DNA of 24,837 bases. It comes from a virus. The DNA lies in IMG/VR virus record IMGVR_UViG_3300030099_001998, positions 1-24,837 of that record; one strand, 5' to 3'. Positions 3,476 to 23,221 of the stretch are shown piece after piece. Made by a program: the position numbers and the translations under genes. Within the stretch, counting starts at the first letter, position 1. Every line of letters begins with the position of its first letter. The notes under the pieces were generated by a model. That model was given only the letters and a program-made list of their open reading frames with translations. It was not told the DNA's origin and ran no database searches.

Positions 3476-5332
3476 TTAATCGTAAATATCGCCCCAAGTT
3501 TCGCCTGATTCATAGTCAACTTTGTTTGGGACTTCCAAGTTAACGGCATTTTCCATAATCTCAACAATTTTTTTAGCATGTTCATTAGATTCAACTGATA
3601 AATCTAACTCATCATGAATTTGAATATGTGCTATAATACCTTCTTTGTAAAGTTCTAACATTGACTTTTTTGTCATGTCTGCTGCAGATCCTTGTATTAA
3701 TTTATTTAGTGCCTTGTATGTGTAAGCTCTTCTAATCCCTGGTCCGTGTTCCTTGAGTGCCTCTTCGTGAGGCATGGCTTTGTGCATACCAAACTGATTT
3801 GGCTCCCACAGATGAAACCTGCATAGTCGTCCTAGTAAAGTTCTTATCTGTCCACGATCTTGTGCACGATTAGATGCTGCGTTCATTAGCTGTTTTACAA
3901 AGGGAACTTTTTTGTGATACTGATTAAATAATTCTTCTGCTTTTTCTTTTGTGACACCTAACTCTGCTTGTAATTTATTTTTACCCATACCATAAAATAA
4001 ACCTAGATTAATTGTTTTAGCTTGTGACCTTGGTATCTGTGCCATGTCCGCAACAATCTGATGAAAGTCAGTTGAGGTATCATTGTTGTATGCTTCAATA
4101 ACTTCATAAACAGATGGAAACTTATATAAAGATGCATAGTGCACAACTAGTCTAGGTTCTTGTTGTGAATAGTCAAAACATCCCCAGGTATGTTTCTCCT
4201 CTGGTAAAAATAAAGATCTAATCAGTGGTCCTAGGTCCTTGTTCCTTGCTGGTAGTTGCTGTAAGTTTGGATTATTATAACTAAATCTACCTGTCACAGT
4301 TCCGCCTTGATCTGATCTTATTTGATTTATATCCGCATGTATTCTACCTTTGTGTTCATATTTTATAATCGTATCAATAAATGTTGTGTGAGCCTTGTTT
4401 ATCTCTCTAGCTTTTGCTATTCTTTGAACCATAGGATGTTTATGTTCTTGAAGAAAGTTTTTGGTAAAAGATGGTGACTCGGTTTTTTCAGTTCTGGAAT
4501 AATCTAGTCCAAGTTTGTCAAAAACTTTGGCGATGCTACGTGCGGCCCATATCTGAACATTTATTTGTGTTTCTTTTTCAACTTCTTGCAGTAATTGTGC
4601 TTCTTGTTTTGACAATTGTTCTTTCAGTGTGTGAGCTCTTTCGACATCGACGCGAACCCCTTTAAATCTCATATCAACTAAACAAGGAAATAAATCAGTT
4701 TCTAAATTAAAAATAGACTCTAAGTCTTGATGTATGATTTCTCTTTTCATAACTTGCCAAAGTTCTAATGTTAACTCTGCATCTCTTTCTGCGTAAGCTC
4801 CAACTTCCATAGCAGGTAGTTGCCACAGATCTTGTTTTGGATCTAAACCACGTGATTTAGCTGCTTCTATTAATGCATTTTCTGATTTACCATAACCAAG
4901 ATAATCCCAACCTAAACTATTTAAACTATATTGAAAACGATTCTCATCTACAAGTGATGCAGCAATCATCGTGTCTACTATTAAACCATTAATTTTTATA
5001 CCTAACTGACGTAACCAACACACATCATACATTGCATTGTGAAATATTTTGACAGAAGTTGTGGACATGATATCTTGAAACCATGATAAGACTTTTTTTC
5101 GATGCATATTTTGACCTGATGCGTGAGCAATCGGAAAATAAAATTTTCGACCAGGGACAGCAACAGCAATTCCAACAACGTCGCCATTTCCTATCACCGA
5201 TCCTGAACCTAATTTTTTCAAATCAGGATCACGAGTCTCCAAGTCAATCGCAATCTCGTCGTAAGATCTAAGATCCGGAAACTCCTCTGGCTCTACCCAT
5301 TCAGTTTGTGCAACAAAGAAAGGAACTTTCAT
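3476..5332 (-). CDS. polA: DNA polymerase I, family A, with 3'-5' exonuclease (Leu762 type)
   Basis: Replicative DNA polymerase of the phage, 618 aa, lacking the 5'-3' exonuclease domain of bacterial Pol I. The proofreading exonuclease comes first: Exo I Asp30-x-Glu32, Exo II Asn99-x-x-Tyr102-Asp103, Exo III Tyr180-x3-Asp184. The polymerase domain follows: motif A Asp387 (DYSQQE), motif B Arg435-x3-Lys439 to Tyr447-Gly448 (AKTINLGLFYG), motif C His573-Asp574-Glu575. All catalytic residues are present, so it should be active. The residue aligned to E. coli Phe762 is Leu443, the variant widespread in virioplankton. The start overlaps the DUF3310 stop by 4 nt (ATGA), placing it last in the replication operon. 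Confidence 0.97.
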   Translation of the reverse strand: MKVPFFVAQTEWVEPEEFPDLRSYDEIAIDLETRDPDLKKLGSGSVIGNGDVVGIAVAVPGRKFYFPIAHASGQNMHRKKVLSWFQDIMSTTSVKIFHNAMYDVCWLRQLGIKINGLIVDTMIAASLVDENRFQYSLNSLGWDYLGYGKSENALIEAAKSRGLDPKQDLWQLPAMEVGAYAERDAELTLELWQVMKREIIHQDLESIFNLETDLFPCLVDMRFKGVRVDVERAHTLKEQLSKQEAQLLQEVEKETQINVQIWAARSIAKVFDKLGLDYSRTEKTESPSFTKNFLQEHKHPMVQRIAKAREINKAHTTFIDTIIKYEHKGRIHADINQIRSDQGGTVTGRFSYNNPNLQQLPARNKDLGPLIRSLFLPEEKHTWGCFDYSQQEPRLVVHYASLYKFPSVYEVIEAYNNDTSTDFHQIVADMAQIPRSQAKTINLGLFYGMGKNKLQAELGVTKEKAEELFNQYHKKVPFVKQLMNAASNRAQDRGQIRTLLGRLCRFHLWEPNQFGMHKAMPHEEALKEHGPGIRRAYTYKALNKLIQGSAADMTKKSMLELYKEGIIAHIQIHDELDLSVESNEHAKKIVEIMENAVNLEVPNKVDYESGETWGDIYD

Positions 5333-5553
5333 TTATAGTCTCTAGCTATAATCATGTCGATATAGTGTTTTGCTTTTTCTAAGTCTTTCTTTTTACCTTT
5401 TCTAGAATGTCTCAAAAGATATTTTATTGCATTGCCTGTTGGAAAATCTAATTTATTTTTTATAATAAACTCTGCAGGTTCTATCACATAACCTTTGTAG
5501 TGATCCCCACCTTTGTCTTTTAACACTGCTTCAAAAAACAATGGGTTCGTCAT
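5329..5553 (-). CDS. DUF3310 family protein
   Basis: 74 aa, matching the short DUF3310 phage family by the pattern HYKGYVIEPAEFI, then GNAIKYLLRHSRKG and KDLEKAKHYIDMI. The family is common next to phage replication and nucleotide-metabolism genes and is sometimes annotated as nucleotide-kinase-like, but its activity is not established. It is coupled by 4-nt ATGA overlaps to the UvrD-like helicase upstream and the DNA polymerase downstream, so it belongs firmly to the replication operon. Family membership is by recall of the motif, not a profile search. Confidence 0.85.
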   Translation of the reverse strand: MTNPLFFEAVLKDKGGDHYKGYVIEPAEFIIKNKLDFPTGNAIKYLLRHSRKGKKKDLEKAKHYIDMIIARDYK

Positions 5554-6968
5554 AAATTATATCCGTACCTTTCTATTTTAGCTCTCATTAAGTAAAGATT
5601 TTTTCTTGCACGAGTAACACCTACATACCACACTCTATGTTCCTCATCTCTCTTATTTACACTATTTTCTACAGATTGTCTAATCTTCCTAGCGTTATCT
5701 AAAATCAAAACTACATTATCAGATTCACCACCTTTCGCAGCGTGTATGGTAGATAGTCTTACCCTTGCATCTTCAAATAATTTTTCTTTATTTGATAGCA
5801 TTAAACGTATATAATCTTTTTGATTTTTTGGTGCGAAAGTAAAGCATTCAAACCAAGTAAATTTTTTATCCATCTTGTCTGTGTATTCTTGTATGTCTTT
5901 CATTTCATTCTCTGTAATACTTTCTCCTTTTGTCCATCTAGTGTAGTTCACAATCGCTTTGTAAAGTTTTACTGTGTAACTCTTTCCCTTTTTAGTTTCA
6001 TAATAAACTCCACGTTCTTCTAACTGTTTCATGATATCTTTTAGTCTAGATGCAGTTCTAGCTAATATTAACCAATTACCTTTTGTTGTATCAACTTGAT
6101 TAATATCAGATATGGTTGTTACACTACCCTCTTCATCTTTTGGACTATATCTTTTACCTACTCTAAGTCCTTGTATTCTATTAATTATTGTTTTTGATGT
6201 TTGTTGAACTTGTGATGGTATTCTGTGGGATTGTGTTAAAAATATTTCTCTACCAGATTCGTTAATAAATCTATTTACATCAGCTCCTGCCCACTGAAAT
6301 ATAGCTTGATCATCATCGCCTGCTAAATAAACATCTTGAGATTTTTCTACTAAGACATCATACATTTTCCATTGTAAAGGTGATAGGTCTTGTGCTTCAT
6401 CTATAAATACAACTTCAAACTCAGGACAAACATCTTTTTCTATAAACATAGAAATCATGTCGTTAAAATCTATTAAATTATTTTTAACTTTGTATTCTTT
6501 TAAATTTAAAGCTATGTGAGATAGTAGCTCCCATTTAATATCCTCGTTAATATATTCACTTGTATACCATTCAGATCTTACAGATATATCTTTGTTTCTA
6601 GCTTTGTTAATAATTTGAAAATATAAATTATCACACGTAAGATAGTGACTCTCCTGATCATTATATTTATCTTGAAAGCTAACTCTTATATTTAATATTT
6701 TACCTAAATCTTCGTAGTGGTGGGGTTGCATAATATTTTCTTCTCTAAGTCCAAGCGAGTGAAAAGCAAGCGAGTGTAAAGTTTGAAAATATTGTAAATC
6801 TTTTTTTGGTTTGTTCATTCTTTCTTTTGCTTCGTTAGCAGCTTTTCTCGTAAAAGCAAAATAACCAATCTTATCTAATGGTGTATCTATGTCTATGTAG
6901 TGTTTAACTATTTCTAAAAGTTTTGTAGTTTTTCCTGTCCCTGGTGGTCCATAGACTTTAGTTATCAT
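5550..6968 (-). CDS. UvrD/Rep-like superfamily 1 DNA helicase
   Basis: A 3'-5' SF1A-type helicase by motif content, 472 aa. In order: Walker A GPPGTGKTT at 7-15, motif Ia AFTRKAANEAKER at 38-50, Walker B Asp190-Glu-Ala-Gln, motif III GDDDQAIFQWAGAD at 217-230, the QSHRIP segment at 246-251, motif V STIHAAKGGESDNV at 406-419 and motif VI VWYVGVTRARKNLYL at 446-460. It is much shorter than UvrD or Rep (about 670-720 aa), mainly through smaller accessory subdomains. It overlaps the primase gene by 4 nt and the DUF3310 gene by 4 nt. No DnaB/gp4-type helicase is visible here, so this enzyme could unwind at the fork for the family A polymerase. That role is inference. Confidence 0.95.
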   Translation of the reverse strand: MITKVYGPPGTGKTTKLLEIVKHYIDIDTPLDKIGYFAFTRKAANEAKERMNKPKKDLQYFQTLHSLAFHSLGLREENIMQPHHYEDLGKILNIRVSFQDKYNDQESHYLTCDNLYFQIINKARNKDISVRSEWYTSEYINEDIKWELLSHIALNLKEYKVKNNLIDFNDMISMFIEKDVCPEFEVVFIDEAQDLSPLQWKMYDVLVEKSQDVYLAGDDDQAIFQWAGADVNRFINESGREIFLTQSHRIPSQVQQTSKTIINRIQGLRVGKRYSPKDEEGSVTTISDINQVDTTKGNWLILARTASRLKDIMKQLEERGVYYETKKGKSYTVKLYKAIVNYTRWTKGESITENEMKDIQEYTDKMDKKFTWFECFTFAPKNQKDYIRLMLSNKEKLFEDARVRLSTIHAAKGGESDNVVLILDNARKIRQSVENSVNKRDEEHRVWYVGVTRARKNLYLMRAKIERYGYNL

Positions 6969-8593
6969 CCTAGTATGTTTTCTCTGCTTTTCATGTTAAC
7001 AGTTTCTTCTTGATACTCGTCTTTTTTAAAATAAGATTTTAAAATTTTAACACAGGTTACGCTTGGGTTAGATTTTTTATCATCAGATTCTTTTGGATAT
7101 CTTTTTCTACATACAAAGTCTTTATCTTGTATTTTGTACAGTGTTTTCATCAACACACCTGTTCTGTCTTCTTTCATCTTCCATTCTTTATTTTTTAAAA
7201 AATTAAAAAATTTACCCCACACAAAGTAAACATGTTCATCATCCATTAGTGTAGCTCCATTTTTAAATGATGTATGACTGTTAGCCAATACTTGGAATAC
7301 ATATTCATTTAAATATTCATGGAGTTTTTCCTCCTGACTAGTTCCCTCTGCTGGTTTAATTAAATCTACTTTACTAAATAATGCTGTTTGTATTTCAAAA
7401 AATTCTGAATTTTTTATTGTTGGTGGAACTATGTGTGCTTGTTCCATGAGCACACCTTTTAATTCTCTTTGATCTCTAAGTTTGTTTACATGGTTTGCAT
7501 GAACCTGAACTGTTTCACCTCCAGGTTTTTCTACTGTAAAATACCATTCTGGATTTGGTTTATAATCTATCTGTGTAAGATTACTTAACATTGGCCAGTT
7601 TTTCTTTTTGTCAGATGCAACACCAAACTTTCTTTTAACACAAACAGATTTTATGCAATGATTTACAATTGGTTTTTGGGAGCAAGTATGACCTTTGGTA
7701 TCTTTTCTCCATGCTTTAATTTTTAATTCTACTTTTCTATCGTCCCACTCTTGTGAGTATACAAAATAATTTCTAGCAGCTAGTATGACTTGTTTTTCCC
7801 AGTCATCTGCATATTTTTTTTTCGCAAAAACCATATAATTATATAGAAAACGATCTCTACCGTCACTTAATTTATTTTTAGTTAACGCTTGCAAACAAGG
7901 CGGACCATCTATAAACTCTTCTGCCCCACCTGTTAGTTCATCTCTAACCAGCGAGTTTGCAAATTCTTCTAGCTCACTTGCTGTTTTTATGTTTGCATCT
8001 ACAACTTTTAAAAATTGTTCTAACGTAAACTCTACTCCATCATGTGGATTAACTGCTACTCTTTCCGTTTTGTTATAGTATGGAAGATTTATAAAATTAC
8101 CATTAATAGGTATGCCATCTTCTGTTTGTCCTAATTCTGTTTGTTTTGGAAATATTTCTGTATTAGATTCTAATTCTAAAATAAATAAAAGTTTGTCTAA
8201 AAAATTTCTAATAACTGTAGCTTTAGTTTTTTCTTTTAAGAAAACATATAAATGTAAACCACCACTTTTTGATTTTACAGGTATGATTGGTAATTTTTTT
8301 TCAACAATAGTTTTTAAATATTTTCTTAAATTAAAATTTTTATAATCTGGATCTATATCTATTGCACCAAACTGTGCCATGCCATTGTCATCACATGGTT
8401 GAATACCAATAGACTTCCTGCCTTGTAAATGATCGATGTAATCTTTATCTGATATTGCATTTTGTGACCAACCGTAGTCTCCTGGTTTAAATTTTATTTT
8501 ACCAGTGTCAGGATCTTTGAAACCATTTTTAATGTTACAATATCCATAATTACGTTTAAGACCTGCAAATATTTCTATAAATTTGCTTTCCAT
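6965..8593 (-). CDS. Archaeo-eukaryotic-type (AEP) DNA primase, TOTE-like primase domain
   Basis: Probably makes primers for the phage polymerase. The 542-aa protein starts with an AEP catalytic core: motif I Asp79-x-Asp81 (AIDIDPDY), motif II Ser110-Gly-Gly-x-His114 (SKSGGLHLYVF) and the EIFPKQ (146-151) and GNFINLPYY (165-173) signatures typical of TOTE-conflict-type and phage AEP primases. A C-terminal primase domain follows with four cysteines, Cys233 (PPCLQAL), Cys304, Cys313 and Cys318, spaced like a zinc or Fe-S site. Residues 340-542 form a further domain I cannot name. No Walker motif is present, so it is not a primase-helicase fusion. Helicase activity would come from the next gene, coupled by ATGA. 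The start is the ATG at 8591-8593, 15 nt after a strong hairpin. Confidence 0.88.
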   Translation of the reverse strand: MESKFIEIFAGLKRNYGYCNIKNGFKDPDTGKIKFKPGDYGWSQNAISDKDYIDHLQGRKSIGIQPCDDNGMAQFGAIDIDPDYKNFNLRKYLKTIVEKKLPIIPVKSKSGGLHLYVFLKEKTKATVIRNFLDKLLFILELESNTEIFPKQTELGQTEDGIPINGNFINLPYYNKTERVAVNPHDGVEFTLEQFLKVVDANIKTASELEEFANSLVRDELTGGAEEFIDGPPCLQALTKNKLSDGRDRFLYNYMVFAKKKYADDWEKQVILAARNYFVYSQEWDDRKVELKIKAWRKDTKGHTCSQKPIVNHCIKSVCVKRKFGVASDKKKNWPMLSNLTQIDYKPNPEWYFTVEKPGGETVQVHANHVNKLRDQRELKGVLMEQAHIVPPTIKNSEFFEIQTALFSKVDLIKPAEGTSQEEKLHEYLNEYVFQVLANSHTSFKNGATLMDDEHVYFVWGKFFNFLKNKEWKMKEDRTGVLMKTLYKIQDKDFVCRKRYPKESDDKKSNPSVTCVKILKSYFKKDEYQEETVNMKSRENILG

Positions 8594-8606
8594 CTTTTAC
8601 TTTCTG

Positions 8607-8630
8607 TGTGGGCAGTGTTACCTGCCCACA
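8607..8630 (-). other. Perfect 9-bp intercistronic hairpin before the primase gene
   Basis: Within the 47-nt gap between the ssDNA-binding-like gene and the primase gene, TGTGGGCAG (8607-8615) and CTGCCCACA (8622-8630) pair perfectly around a 6-nt loop. It is GC-rich compared with its surroundings. In the direction of the operon it is followed by a purine-rich leader and no T-run, so it is not a classic intrinsic terminator for these genes. Read on the plus strand it is followed by GTTTTGTGATTT and could terminate antisense transcription. An mRNA processing or stability element, or partial attenuation between abundant binding protein and scarce primase, also fits. Confidence 0.7.
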
Positions 8631-8640
8631 GTTTTGTGAT

Positions 8641-9411
8641 TTAAAGTATTGATTTAGTTTGTTCTGGAGCATCACCATGCTTAACCTGAACATCACCCTT
8701 TGAAACACTTTGATTGAAAGCTCTCGCTTGAGAGTAAAGTTGTTCGTCCTGTACTGGACCAACTTTGCTAACTTCCCATCCAAACCAAGTGCCTTTATCA
8801 TTAGATTGCTGCACAGTTCTTAACTTGTAAATGTGGCTAAAAGCTGGCGGCTTGAACATACCATTTTTACCTTTTAATAATATCTGGTTAATCATGGTAT
8901 TCCATTTTCTACTAATTTTAAGTTGTGTTGATTTCATTGCGATCAACGCTGTTGATGGTGTACTACCTTCACAAATAATAACAAAATGGTTTGCTGTTTT
9001 TTCAACATAGGTACCACTTGGTAATCTATCTTTGTAATCAGCTCCTCTTGTTGTTTGTGATAGGATATCACTAGATGATGGATGTATTGCAACTGGTGCC
9101 GTTGGCCCAGTTCCTCTGTCGTTCCATTCTATGTACTCTAACTTATAGTGACATGGAATAACAGTTATCCCTTTTTCTCCATCATATAATTCAGAAGTTA
9201 CTGTATTGATAATCATGCCAGGTTCTGCACCTTCAACATACTTACCTTCTCTCTTGTTTACTTCTGGGGACAATTGTCCCAATACTTTTAAAAAGGGTAG
9301 CGCTAAATCTTCTTGAGATAAATCACCAACACCTTTTCCTGCATCAGCTTCAAATGTAGTTGTAGCCAAAGCATTGTTTTTCTTTTCTGTCATTGCTTGT
9401 TCTTTGCTCAT
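8641..9411 (-). CDS. Putative single-stranded DNA-binding / recombination-associated phage protein
   Basis: 256 aa, soluble, no enzyme motif. It has the LALPFLKVLGQLSPEV opening and the extended beta-rich middle (GITVIPCHYKLEYIEW, TYVEKTANHFVIICEG, LKISRKWNTMINQI) of a protein type regularly found just upstream of phage primase or polymerase genes. That type is often annotated as ssDNA-binding or recombination-associated. The C-terminal 40 residues are polar and probably disordered, but lack the acidic tip of classical SSB. GAGGAAA, spanning the stop codon of the previous gene, serves as ribosome binding site for ATG 9409-9411; a second in-frame ATG lies six codons later. The assignment rests on position and general resemblance. 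Confidence 0.6.
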   Translation of the reverse strand: MSKEQAMTEKKNNALATTTFEADAGKGVGDLSQEDLALPFLKVLGQLSPEVNKREGKYVEGAEPGMIINTVTSELYDGEKGITVIPCHYKLEYIEWNDRGTGPTAPVAIHPSSSDILSQTTRGADYKDRLPSGTYVEKTANHFVIICEGSTPSTALIAMKSTQLKISRKWNTMINQILLKGKNGMFKPPAFSHIYKLRTVQQSNDKGTWFGWEVSKVGPVQDEQLYSQARAFNQSVSKGDVQVKHGDAPEQTKSIL

Positions 9412-9416
9412 CGTTC

Positions 9417-9962
9417 TTATTTCCTCGTTAGTTTGGTTCGGTTTCCTGCGAACACGTTAAATAGTTCTGTGGGCATATCATCACCTTTTTCGATACGCTC
9501 ACGAACTAAGGCTTTCAGAGTCATGGGTTCAACTTTTAGTTTTTGAACCGGTTCGAACCCATGCTCCTTGGCAAGGCTTGCATAATCGCTCGCCTTGTTA
9601 TCTTCGTTACGACCAAAGGAAACGGTCACTTCATTCTTGATGATGTTACCTAAGTCGTTATCTCGAAGCCATTTAAATGCCTCTTCTTTTTTTGCTTCTG
9701 TTATTGAGGCACCGTAGACGGGTTTAACTTCTATTGCTGATCCGTCTGCTAATTTCATTGTTTTTAAATTCATCTCTTGCATCATATTTGGTATGACTTC
9801 TCCTGAGATGTAATTCATTTCAGATTTTAATTTTTTTAAATAATCCTCTGTATCTTTTATTTGATCCTCCAAGTTTTTTAATTTTACTACTTGTGATGAT
9901 AGTGCTTTACCATCATCAATACTTGTTAGACTTTCTTGTTTATCTTTTTCAAAATCAATCAT
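9417..9962 (-). CDS. Conserved phage protein with N-terminal coiled coil, early/replication operon
   Basis: 181 aa, unknown function. Residues about 25-52 form a heptad-like coiled coil (VVKLKNLEDQIKDTEDYLKK). A conserved mixed domain follows with the pattern MKLADGSAIEVKPVYGASI, AFKWLRDNDLGNIIKNEVTV and PMTLKALVRERIEKG. I recall this pattern from proteins in the replication regions of many podo- and siphophages, without an agreed role. It ends in a basic tail. The start overlaps the previous gene by 8 nt, and a 5-nt spacer containing part of the next SD separates it from the ssDNA-binding-like gene. It may partner that protein or act early against the host. Confidence 0.7.
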   Translation of the reverse strand: MIDFEKDKQESLTSIDDGKALSSQVVKLKNLEDQIKDTEDYLKKLKSEMNYISGEVIPNMMQEMNLKTMKLADGSAIEVKPVYGASITEAKKEEAFKWLRDNDLGNIIKNEVTVSFGRNEDNKASDYASLAKEHGFEPVQKLKVEPMTLKALVRERIEKGDDMPTELFNVFAGNRTKLTRK

Positions 9963-10311
9963 CTATTTCTCCTTTCTCGTAAAGATTAATTGAAATAGGA
10001 TAATATCTTCTTTCTTGCTTATCCCATTTTAGTAAGTTGTATTTGCCATTTGTAATGTCCGATACAACTGAACATGCAACACCTATGATTGCAGGATCTC
10101 CAGTTAGTAATAAATAATCTTCTGGTTTATAATCTCGTAGCATTTTACGTAGTTTAAAAACCAGTGGACCAGGTGATAAAATAATTTGAGACGTCTCTGG
10201 TAATAAAACCTTTAACGTACCAAACTCAGATGCTCCTATAATATTAATTTTAGGACGGCCATCTCTTGTTCCTGGTATATCCTGTAAAACGTATACAAAA
10301 TTTTTATTCAT
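9955..10311 (-). CDS. Conserved phage protein, first gene of the replication operon
   Basis: 118 aa, unknown function. It is small and soluble with a compact alpha/beta pattern (FVYVLQDIPGTRDGRPKINI, YLLLTGDPAIIGVACSVVSD, KYNLLKWDKQERRYYPISI). Nothing in it points to an enzyme. The GDPAIIGVACSVV segment resembles conserved hypothetical proteins of marine phages that sit at the head of replication clusters. The ATG at 10309-10311 follows an AAGAAAG ribosome-binding-like stretch and lies about 10 nt after the expected start of a weak leftward promoter. It overlaps the next gene by 8 nt. As the first and probably earliest expressed gene it could be regulatory, but the sequence shows no DNA-binding motif I can name. 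Confidence 0.7.
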   Translation of the reverse strand: MNKNFVYVLQDIPGTRDGRPKINIIGASEFGTLKVLLPETSQIILSPGPLVFKLRKMLRDYKPEDYLLLTGDPAIIGVACSVVSDITNGKYNLLKWDKQERRYYPISINLYEKGEIDD

Positions 10312-10318
10312 AACTTTC

Positions 10319-10349
10319 TTGACAATAGATTTAGTTTATCCTATATAAT
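10319..10349 (+). promoter_or_regulatory. Strong sigma70-like promoter for the SNF2 helicase gene
   Basis: Consensus TTGACA at 10319-10324 and consensus TATAAT at 10344-10349 are 19 nt apart. A TATATA at 10342-10347 gives the more usual 17-nt spacing. Transcription would begin near 10356 and leave a leader of about 22 nt before the ATG at 10378. This is the best promoter-like match in the window and the only one facing right. Confidence 0.75.
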
Positions 10350-10356
10350 ATGTCAA
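10328..10356 (-). promoter_or_regulatory. Weaker leftward promoter overlapping the helicase promoter
   Basis: On the minus strand a consensus TTGACA occupies 10356-10351, and after 17 nt a poor -10 (TAAATC, 10333-10328) follows. Transcription would start near 10321, about 10 nt before the first replication gene. The core lies within the span of the rightward promoter, so the two could not be occupied by RNA polymerase at once. The -35 is convincing and the -10 is not. Confidence 0.45.
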
Positions 10357-10377
10357 TAGAAAGAAAAATTAAAAATT

Positions 10378-11811
10378 ATGAATTACAAGTTTAAGACGAA
10401 GCCATTTGCGCATCAGTTGAAAGCGTTAGAAATATCTCACAATAAAGAGGTTTTCGCCTATTTTATGGAGATGGGTACAGGTAAATCAAAGGTTCTAATA
10501 GACAATGTATCCATGTTGTACGATGCGGGTAAAATCAATGGTGTTCTAATTGTGGCACCAAAGGGTGTTTATAAAAACTGGGCAAACTCAGAAATACCTA
10601 CACATATGGTGGACCACATAGATAAAAAAGTAGTGGTTTGGCAGTCGTTAATTAACGAAAAACAACAAAAAAAATTAAACACACTGTTTGAAACTGGTGA
10701 AGACTTGCATGTTTTAGTAATGAATGTTGAAGCACTATCAACTAAAAAGGGTTTTCAGTTTGCAGTTAAGTTTTTATCAGCACACAAAGCTTTGACAGCT
10801 ATTGATGAATCTACAACTATAAAAAATCCTGGTGCAAAAAGAACAAAAAATATTTTAATGTTGTCAAAGTTTAGTAAATACAAAAGAATACTTACAGGGT
10901 CTCCCGTAACTAAATCACCACTAGATTTATATACACAGTGTCAGTTCCTTGATCCTTGGTTATTGGGTGAACAATCGTATTACAGTTTTAGAACACGATA
11001 TGCCATAATGAAAACTGCAAATTTTAGCGGTAGATCTGTGCAAATAGTCGTTGGATACAGAAACTTGCCTGAACTATCAGAAAAAATAAAACCTTTTTCA
11101 TACAGAGTCTTAAAAGATGATTGTTTAGATTTACCAGATAAAACATACATGAAACGTATTATTCAACTAACAGATGAACAAAATAAAATTTATAAACAAA
11201 TGAAACAACAAGCGTTAGCCGTGTTAAATGGTAAAATGTTAACAACTAAAAATGTTGTAACTCAACTTATGAGACTTCAACAAATTACATCAGGTCATTT
11301 TACTTCTGATGATGGTGAGATACAGGTAGTAAAAAATAATCGTATTAAAGAACTTATTAACATCTTAGATGAGATTAGTGGAAAAGTTGTAATATGGGCA
11401 CATTGGAGGTACGACATACAAACAATTGTAGAACATCTAAAAAAAGAATATGGGGATAACTCTGTAGTAACATATTATGGTGATACATCTGATGAAGATA
11501 GACAGAAAGCAATACGTGAAATACAAAACCCAGACAGTGAGGTTAGATTTATTGTAGGCACACCACAGACAGCTGGTTTTGGTATTACGTTAACAGGTGC
11601 ATCAACCATGGTTTATTACTCTAACGGATATGATTTAGAAAAACGTCAACAGTCTGAAGCTAGAATAGATCGTATTGGTCAAACTAAAAACATGACCTAC
11701 ATCGATATTATTTGTGAAAAGACGGTTGATGAAAGAATTGTTCACGCACTTCGTAGAAAAGTTAATATTGCAACAGAGATAATGGGAGAGGAGCTTAAAG
11801 AGTGGATATGA
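10378..11811 (+). CDS. SNF2-type superfamily 2 helicase/ATPase
   Basis: 477 aa, the only long gene on the plus strand. All SF2/SNF2 motifs are seen in order: Q-like HQLKAL at 12-17, Walker A GTGKS at 33-37, motif Ia IVAPKGVYKNW at 58-68, motif II Asp143-Glu144-Ser-Thr, motif III LTGSPVTKSPLDLY at 172-185, motif IV near VVIWAHW at 337-343, motif V GTPQTAGFGITLTGAS at 394-409 and motif VI QQSEARIDRIGQ at 424-435. DEST replaces the usual DEAH/DEGH box. SNF2-type phage proteins translocate on duplex DNA and are found in replication or recombination modules. This copy has the two RecA-like lobes and little else. It has its own promoter facing away from the replication operon. A role in replication fork remodelling, displacing host proteins or late switching is inference. 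Confidence 0.95.
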   Translation: MNYKFKTKPFAHQLKALEISHNKEVFAYFMEMGTGKSKVLIDNVSMLYDAGKINGVLIVAPKGVYKNWANSEIPTHMVDHIDKKVVVWQSLINEKQQKKLNTLFETGEDLHVLVMNVEALSTKKGFQFAVKFLSAHKALTAIDESTTIKNPGAKRTKNILMLSKFSKYKRILTGSPVTKSPLDLYTQCQFLDPWLLGEQSYYSFRTRYAIMKTANFSGRSVQIVVGYRNLPELSEKIKPFSYRVLKDDCLDLPDKTYMKRIIQLTDEQNKIYKQMKQQALAVLNGKMLTTKNVVTQLMRLQQITSGHFTSDDGEIQVVKNNRIKELINILDEISGKVVIWAHWRYDIQTIVEHLKKEYGDNSVVTYYGDTSDEDRQKAIREIQNPDSEVRFIVGTPQTAGFGITLTGASTMVYYSNGYDLEKRQQSEARIDRIGQTKNMTYIDIICEKTVDERIVHALRRKVNIATEIMGEELKEWI

Positions 11812-11918: not shown

Positions 11919-11921
11919 ACG

Positions 11922-11940
11922 GCCATTTAAATGGCTTTTT
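11922..11940 (+). terminator. Intrinsic terminator of the helicase unit
   Basis: The perfect palindrome GCCATTTAAATGGC (11922-11935) can fold into a 5-bp stem with a TTAA loop and runs straight into TTTTT (11936-11940). This is the form of a rho-independent terminator for rightward transcription. The T-run overlaps the stop codon of the leftward 72-aa gene, so the two convergent units end against each other. Confidence 0.6.
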
Positions 11941-21882: not shown

Positions 21883-22098
21883 TTATTTAATGTCCTCTTT
21901 TCCATCCGACATTTTATTTTGAAGCTCTTTAGGTAAATTAGGAACCCATTCAAACAAGCATCTTATTAAATGATTAATCGCATGCTTAGATCCCTCAAAG
22001 CTTAGCGTTATCGTTGGTTTAAATAAAAGTTTTATTCTTTCTCTCCAAGTAAAAAGAATTACAATTTTTCCTGTTTTTGCCTCTTGTTTAAACTTCAT
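21883..22098 (-). CDS. 71-aa hypothetical protein
   Basis: Unknown function. It is basic and partly hydrophobic (GKIVILFTWRERIKLLF, HLIRCLFEWVPNL) without a clear membrane helix, ending in a charged tail. It is coupled to the oxygenase gene before it by a 4-nt ATGA overlap, which is the main support for its being real. It is the last gene before the structural gene block and its promoter-like gap, so it belongs to the cargo cluster. Confidence 0.6.
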   Translation of the reverse strand: MKFKQEAKTGKIVILFTWRERIKLLFKPTITLSFEGSKHAINHLIRCLFEWVPNLPKELQNKMSDGKEDIK

Positions 22099-22658
22099 TT
22101 TTTAGCACCCGGAAGATTTCTACGATCTAAATAACAATCTTTGTTTGGTCCATTTGCATCTACATAATGCATAAATACTTGCATCGCCCAGTCCCCCAAA
22201 AATTTTTCTCTATGATGCTCAACTTGTTCTCCTAGATAAACACAAGCTTCTCCAGGCTCTAATTGAACTGGACGACCATCCATGTAAATAGGCCAAGGGG
22301 TTTTATCGCTATTAATATTAATAGTTACGGATATTTCACAAGAAGGTCTATCTTTGTGTTTTTTTAAAAAAGCTCCGTGAGTATAAACTCTAAAATAAGT
22401 ATAGGTAGGTAATAAATTTTTATTAACTTCTTTTTCAATTAACTTTCTTTTAAGAATCATTAAACTATCCGTTAAATAATCTCCATATTGATAAGTATCT
22501 AAATTAGACGATAAGATAGTGTCACCCTCTGATTCTTTATCCATATAATTATGTCTATGAAAAAGTTCTATATAAAGAGATAATAATTTTCTTTCCTCCT
22601 CTGTTAAAAAATTTTTTATAATTTTATATTTAAAATCTTTTCCTATAGTGCCCAACAT
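22095..22658 (-). CDS. 2-oxoglutarate/Fe(II) oxygenase-like protein (first of tandem pair from the left)
   Basis: 187 aa, probable member of the double-stranded beta-helix 2OG-Fe(II) oxygenase superfamily. These enzymes couple 2-oxoglutarate decarboxylation to hydroxylation of a protein, nucleic acid or small molecule. Visible signs: FRVYTHGAFLKKHKD with His101-x-Asp103 as the first two iron ligands, the strand pair SCEISVTININ and MDGRPVQLEPGEACVYLG, and the EHHREKF segment (His148/149 as third ligand, Arg150 following). This HHRE...QVFMHY ending is a phage and bacterial subtype distinct from canonical P4H. It is not a duplicate of the next gene, since the sequences differ throughout. It overlaps that gene by 16 nt. 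Substrate unknown. Confidence 0.75.
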   Translation of the reverse strand: MLGTIGKDFKYKIIKNFLTEEERKLLSLYIELFHRHNYMDKESEGDTILSSNLDTYQYGDYLTDSLMILKRKLIEKEVNKNLLPTYTYFRVYTHGAFLKKHKDRPSCEISVTININSDKTPWPIYMDGRPVQLEPGEACVYLGEQVEHHREKFLGDWAMQVFMHYVDANGPNKDCYLDRRNLPGAKK

Positions 22659-23221
22659 ACTATCGTATACCTTTCACCATTTGTAACTGGAGAGACAGCG
22701 TGAGGAAATAAATGATTACTTGGCCAAATCATTAATCTACCTGCTCTTGGTTTTATTTCTAAAATATTATCCTTTCCAGACGGATCATAAAAAAGTAAAT
22801 CTCCTCCCTCATACTCATCATTAAGCATAAAAATACAACTTAAAGTTCTAGGTATAAACGGATTGTGATCTGTGTGAGGATGAAAGTGACCTTCTTTTTT
22901 ATATTTTAAAACTTCTATACTACTTATTTTATTCATAGTTAGATAATTTAAATTTAAATTTTTTTTATATTCTGTAATTTGTTTTACAAAAAACTTAGAA
23001 TAAAAATTAGCCCAATGAACAATAGCTAAATTTTTATCTTCGTTTGATAAAGACAAACTATAACAATCTCTGGATTTTTTATCATAAGAGGTTTTAGATT
23101 TATCATTTACAACACCCGCTAAATTAAATTTATTTTTTTTAATAAAACTAAGAAAATTTTCTATAGCCTCTCTACTCATTACATCATCATATATTTCTAT
23201 ATGATCTAATAAAGAACTCAT
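22643..23221 (-). CDS. 2-oxoglutarate/Fe(II)-dependent oxygenase, prolyl 4-hydroxylase-like
   Basis: 192 aa with the canonical P4Hc pattern: YKKEGHFHPHTDHNPF (His116-x-Asp118), the strands RTLSCIFMLNDEYEGGDLLF and AGRLMIWPSNHLFPHAVSPV (His174 third iron ligand), then GERYTIVCWAL with Arg184 at the 2-oxoglutarate carboxylate site. All metal and co-substrate residues are present, so activity is likely. Known family members hydroxylate proline or other residues; in marine phages these genes are frequent near tail fibres and their substrates are unknown. A good AAGGAG ribosome binding site precedes the ATG at 23219-23221, inside the end of the preceding gene (4-nt ATGA overlap). It belongs to a cargo cluster and is not a core virion gene. 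Confidence 0.9.
   Translation of the reverse strand: MSSLLDHIEIYDDVMSREAIENFLSFIKKNKFNLAGVVNDKSKTSYDKKSRDCYSLSLSNEDKNLAIVHWANFYSKFFVKQITEYKKNLNLNYLTMNKISSIEVLKYKKEGHFHPHTDHNPFIPRTLSCIFMLNDEYEGGDLLFYDPSGKDNILEIKPRAGRLMIWPSNHLFPHAVSPVTNGERYTIVCWAL

Follow-up and report, generated by a model that had tools for sequence, protein, structure and literature searches.

Divergent promoters that occupy one short stretch of DNA are familiar from several systems. In temperate phage switches of the lambda-like and TP901-1 types, repressor-controlled divergent early promoters lie in one intergenic region. On plasmid pLS20, each of the promoters Pc and Pr has its −35 and −10 boxes on or next to the −10 and −35 boxes of the other, a single polymerase occupies the strong/weak pair, and the system further includes the regulator RcoLS20, DNA looping and a poor Pr (PMC4207663). 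The bidirectional promoters described by Warman, Grainger and colleagues consist of pseudo-symmetric DNA from which one polymerase produces divergent mRNAs, and they have one shared −10 and starts that are 7–25 bp apart (PMC12825309, PMC10268837).

Here, we describe a 38-bp element in the only divergent gap (10312–10377) of a pelagiphage-like contig with HTVC023P-type relatives. The contig is itself a virus record, 24,837 bases long, referred to as a whole as the window. The gap, which separates the starts of a leftward 118-aa gene and a rightward SNF2 helicase gene, very probably contains a complete sigma-70-type promoter on each strand, the two being fully superimposed, so that RNA polymerase would bind in one orientation at a time. 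The interlocked boxes, single polymerase occupancy and strong/weak pairing resemble those of pLS20, whereas the two −35 boxes of this element come close to consensus, the pair would drive the replication genes of a phage group and no regulator was recognised. Separate −10s and predicted starts ~35 bp apart place the element outside the Warman type. Unlike in the lambda-like and TP901-1 switches, the gap is flanked by a helicase gene and the first gene of the replication operon, with no recognised repressor gene. Thus, the geometry is already known from pLS20, and what is new is its near-symmetric form across a phage clade without a recognised regulator, together with one side that is probably leaderless and a design with a shared −10 to which some relatives have naturally changed over. 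HTVC023P-type pelagiphages are described as occurring widely and as ranking with the most abundant pelagiphages (PMC9599517); in the literature searched we found neither a promoter description for this group nor an earlier description of a superimposed pelagiphage promoter.

The SNF2 protein has its closest named relatives in Pelagibacter phage HTVC027P (64%) and phage 023Pt_psg01 (62%), both of HTVC023P type. In Pseudanabaena phage Pam3, the orthologues gp31 (the helicase), gp32, gp33 and gp34 all point in the same direction. The pelagiphage group retains this gene order with the helicase inverted relative to the other three genes, which gives rise to the divergent gap. No phage RNA polymerase was seen in the window, and Rfam and tRNA scans of it returned no matches. 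A replication origin at the gap was considered and dropped, as GC skew has no gap-specific sign change beyond that of the inverted SNF2 gene. Coordinates of the genes and promoter features are collected in Table 1.

Table 1. Genes and predicted promoter features around the divergent gap (window coordinates).
Feature	Position	Strand	Remarks
Remaining leftward replication operon: Pam3 gp33-like, gp34-like, primase, UvrD-like helicase, DUF3310, DNA polymerase A	3476..9962	-	
118-aa protein, first gene of replication operon, Pam3 gp32-like	9955..10311	-	PF23992, phrog_5888
AGAAAG	10314..10319	-	2 nt before ATG of 118-aa gene
Predicted leftward transcription start	10319..10321	-	~10320, from spacing; leader ~9 nt
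Rightward −35 box TTGACA, SNF2 promoter	10319..10324	+	TTGAC in 158/168 window- and psg01-clade gaps
Leftward −10 candidate TAAATC	10328..10333	-	17 bp, weak; TAAAT also in L103, L095, L092
Rightward −10 region TATATAAT	10342..10349	+	TATATA at 17 bp, TATAAT at 19 bp; 17-bp TATA conserved
Leftward −35 box TTGACA, replication-operon promoter	10351..10356	-	conserved while spacer diverged
Predicted rightward transcription start	10354..10356	+	~A10355/A10356, from −10 position; leader ~22 nt
TAGAAAG, Shine-Dalgarno-like site of SNF2 gene	10357..10363	+	14 nt before ATG; conserved
SNF2-family DNA helicase	10378..11811	+	sole rightward gene of window

Direct reading of the window confirmed the preliminary description of two inward-facing TTGACA boxes that form an inverted repeat with outer ends 38 bp apart, and AGAAAG extends the repeat on both outer sides (10314–10319 and 10358–10363). 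Exact TTGACA is rarer in the window than expected (10 seen vs 22.8). The window has a single exact TTGACA/TGTCAA pair that faces inward at this distance, with 0.03 expected per window under a first-order Markov model, and a single TTGACA-N15–19-TATAAT (0.08 expected). The rightward site has a TTGACA-like −35 and a TATAAT-like −10 at the 16–18 bp spacing of sigma-70-type promoters, and takes rank 1 among 49,584 scored positions, the leftward site (TTGACA, 17 bp, TAAATC) being rank 133; these consensus scores use −35/−10 weights derived from E. coli and not from SAR11. The rightward promoter had been described as consensus TTGACA/TATAAT. Both hexamers are present, but TATAAT (10344–10349) stands 19 bp from the −35, and the element at the optimal 17 bp is the overlapping TATATA (10342–10347). 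For the leftward promoter, the preliminary description gave no −10; the hexamer at 17 bp is the weak TAAATC. A general promoter scan of the window, whose counts equalled those in shuffled DNA, missed the site because it allowed only 16–18 bp spacers. Since the leftward site ranks only 133, the window sequence alone is no proof of a leftward promoter, and its support comes from comparison with relatives, in which the sigma-70-type pattern is strong across the clade.

For this comparison we used 285 distinct gaps from metagenomic sequences, which fall into four SNF2 clades. The divergent gene pair occurs in 77 of the first 80 relatives, in gaps of about 49–102 bp. In the search of related phages for the arrangement, a check proposed in the preliminary description, the two-box element is present in 103/110 distinct gaps of the window clade and 55/58 of the psg01 clade, so that 158 of these 168 gaps keep both boxes while the intervening sequence has diverged. 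Information reaches 0.85–2.7 bits per column in the boxes (1.2–2.7 in the first five) and 0–0.5 in the interior. Element length varies across relatives (33, 34, 36, 37 or 38 bp) and has switched many times on a tree of 113 SNF2 proteins, with 34 label changes counted across all classes. Outside the gap, TTGAC box pairs are rare: 1.68 Mb contain 10 distinct ones, most of them unrelated, and three of the 10 resemble the same element and lie in longer psg01-clade gaps. In the related phage DSL-LC04, the gene pair is divergent and the two-box element is absent.

The spacing of the −10 sequences carries the case for two promoters. We grouped the elements into 35 clusters at 75% identity and compared them with 400 shuffled controls, a procedure in which relatedness is reduced by clustering only and not fully removed. 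In 17 of the 35 clusters, the rightward and the leftward −35 each have their TATA at 16–18 bp, compared with 0.135 in the shuffles (maximum 2); counted separately, 26/35 clusters have it rightward (2.4 in shuffles) and 26/35 leftward (2.5). A weighted promoter score gave the same outcome in the window clade. The psg01 clade taken alone (10 clusters) has no significant −10 excess and adds little independent −10 evidence. The variance of the distance from TATA to the far box is 0.40 (left) and 0.89 (right), against 3.08 (left) and 2.82 (right) for the near box. TATA is thus anchored to the far box despite the 33–38 bp drift in length, which is promoter grammar and not that of a dyad operator. 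The boxes, their conservation and this two-way spacing rule are observed, and they bear out the earlier claim of overlapping divergent promoters for the helicase and the replication operon, with correct −35/−10 spacing in both directions.

The positions of ribosome sites and start codons agree with the predicted starts. TAGAAAG is complementary to the CTTTCTA that follows CCTC in SAR11 16S rRNA genes (...GGATTACCTCCTTTCTA). On the right side, AGAAAG begins at offset 36–42 and never earlier in 72 of 73 representatives, and was not located in the remaining one. The left-side AGAAAG is probably too near the ATG for normal Shine-Dalgarno function. Three relatives without the 118-aa gene beside SNF2 (L014, L020, L037) lack the two-way element and retain AGAAAG, which supports a ribosome-site role for this motif. 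For the left gene, offsets were counted from the right-hand box, and a promoter with a 17-bp spacer would start at offset 36–37. The left ATG lies at an offset of at least 36 in 100/100 distinct window-clade gaps, a limit that stems in part from the sequence of the box, where an ATG does not fit. No start codon of the relatives is upstream of the predicted leftward start offset, and in 65 of the 100 gaps the ATG is at offset 36–40, that is, 0–4 nt after the predicted start. Start-codon position is thus linked to the predicted transcription start, which suggests that the replication-operon mRNA is leaderless in most relatives, a class of mRNA known in alphaproteobacteria (PMC3616915); the window's own left leader is predicted at 9 nt.

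Two other clades have different designs in this gap. The two-box element is absent from all 59 HTVC023P-clade gaps, in which the left gene has a classical GGAGG site, and the whole element is likewise missing from cultured HTVC023P. The HTVC027P clade keeps the rightward TTGACT-17-TATA and usually lacks the right-hand box, as does cultured HTVC027P. Among the HTVC027P-clade gaps without the element, 40/42 show CTTTC-TATATA-AGAAAG mirrored around one −10, resembling the shared −10 bidirectional promoters of the Warman type. Leftward initiation is therefore probably retained by other means in HTVC027P-type phages, judging from these mirrored sequences.

Taken together, the sequence comparisons lead us to infer that both promoters are transcribed, that they exclude each other and that they differ in strength. 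In each, the −35 would sit at the outer end and the −10 just inside the −35 of the other, so that host RNA polymerase would bind the same 38 bp in either orientation, never both. A rightward polymerase would make SNF2 helicase mRNA with a short leader beginning almost at the Shine-Dalgarno-like TAGAAAG; a leftward one would make replication-operon mRNA, with a leader of ~9 nt here and putatively none in most relatives. The preliminary description held that RNA polymerase cannot occupy both promoters. Exclusion does follow from the geometry, given the size of the polymerase and published work on overlapping promoters (PMC4207663, PMC12825309), and the host enzyme probably starts only one gene set at a time; measurable competition need not result, as weak E. 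coli bidirectional promoters show none while stronger or activated ones compete (PMC12825309). In its simplest role, this single site would be a compact means of expressing two replication modules constitutively, with polymerase orientation setting their ratio.

The overlap may also have no regulatory meaning and simply be how a compact genome accommodates two promoters in the least space, a reading compatible with superimposed promoters and to which we give a little less than even weight. Most adjacent genes in the window overlap or almost touch, many left genes begin at the predicted transcription start and so save a leader, and low-activity bidirectional promoters need not compete measurably (PMC12825309). 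Compactness leaves unexplained why the boxes stay 33–38 bp apart in gaps of about 49–102 bp, though inertia could account for this. More tentatively, the superimposed promoters might form a clade-wide orientation toggle without a regulator, in which polymerase competition sets the SNF2:operon ratio, evolution tunes it by single −10 changes and HTVC027P-type phages have switched to a shared −10.

A regulated switch at the superimposed promoters is possible but unlikely in the form in which a phage or host regulator flips polymerase orientation during infection and SNF2 is expressed first. The same geometry, with a strong promoter, a weak promoter and a regulator, operates in the real pLS20 switch (PMC4207663), at E. 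coli bidirectional promoters the activation of one direction can lead to repression of the opposite one (PMC12825309), and the window does hold a strong/weak pair, since the ranks of 1 and 133 uphold the earlier expectation that the rightward promoter should be the stronger in this phage. Against a switch, there is no operator-like motif beyond the boxes, the AGAAAG sites and a modest preference beside the left box, and no regulator was recognised among the scanned proteins of the window, a 24.8-kb fragment. The strength balance is also not conserved. By consensus score with E. coli weights, 28 of 73 representatives have a rightward bias, 17 have a leftward bias and 28 are even; in the nearest relatives, sister phages L102 and L005, the bias is leftward. 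This lability led us to reject a general SNF2-first rule, and with it the earlier suggestion that the SNF2 gene is favoured. In HTVC027P, the early genes are all of unknown function, so that the annotated helicase is not among them, which speaks against early expression of the helicase in that phage (PMC12753301); the text of this RNA-seq paper reports no start sites or promoters and names no class for gp01 or gp87.

Less likely still is that only the rightward promoter works in the window phage, the leftward box being a relic and the replication operon being transcribed from elsewhere. The weak leftward −10 and rank of 133 would fit such a relic, as would the loss of the right-hand box in HTVC027P-type relatives, but there the box is replaced by the mirrored shared −10. 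In the window, the leftward TTGACA still matches at 6/6 positions, and TAAAT at the right spacing is common to the three relatives named in Table 1, whose elements equal the window's in length. The top 25 sites include no stronger leftward one between the first gene of the operon and SNF2. That the TTGAC...GTCAA inverted repeat is the operator of a dimeric DNA-binding protein and not a −35 pair is very improbable and was rejected, despite near-perfect palindromes with 11-bp arms in L040, L058, L063 and L064, since half-site spacing is not fixed and its 5-bp range, equal to half a helical turn, would break the shared face, TATA tracks the far box and not the arm containing it, and promoter hexamers are matched in both directions.

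The predicted superimposed promoters at this gap give the HTVC023P-type pelagiphage group a precise, conserved and testable promoter site. The natural length and strength variants are a ready-made series for polymerase competition at superimposed promoters, and the alternative design is found at the corresponding place in HTVC027P, a phage on which RNA-seq work has been published.

Other promoter-like sites were noted. The second-best in the window (12231–12204, minus strand; TTGACA-16-TATTAT) is near the 3′ end of a 1318-aa gene and upstream of the gene for a 72-aa protein, and is also found in L102, L005 and L062; as it lies within coding sequence, its conservation may be that of the protein. 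In L103, L062, L027, L119 and L143, a recurrent TTGACA..ACCCTnAGTACCCCCTATATTTT with 19-bp spacing on the minus strand, about 1593–2109 bases past the SNF2 start codon, is a possible late promoter. In the window, a hairpin followed by a T-run (GGCCATTTAAATGGCT TTTTATTT, 11921–11936) lies between the SNF2 and 72-aa genes, which are convergent, and is likely the terminator for SNF2.

The 118-aa protein belongs to a family without assigned function (PF23992), and its AlphaFold model has a pLDDT of 83. Nearly all of the 50 structural matches listed for this model are CARF or SAVED cyclic-oligonucleotide sensors, including Csa3, Cad1, Cap4/Cap5, Can2 and ring nucleases; among the matches listed, Z is at most 7.9 and Foldseek E is 0.008 or weaker. 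The matches are weak but uniform. Based on the model, a counter-defence role in binding or cleaving cyclic nucleotides is possible. Elsewhere in the window (22095–23221, minus strand), two adjacent proteins match PHROGs annotated as ferrochelatase (the first) and 2OG-Fe(II) oxygenase (the second).
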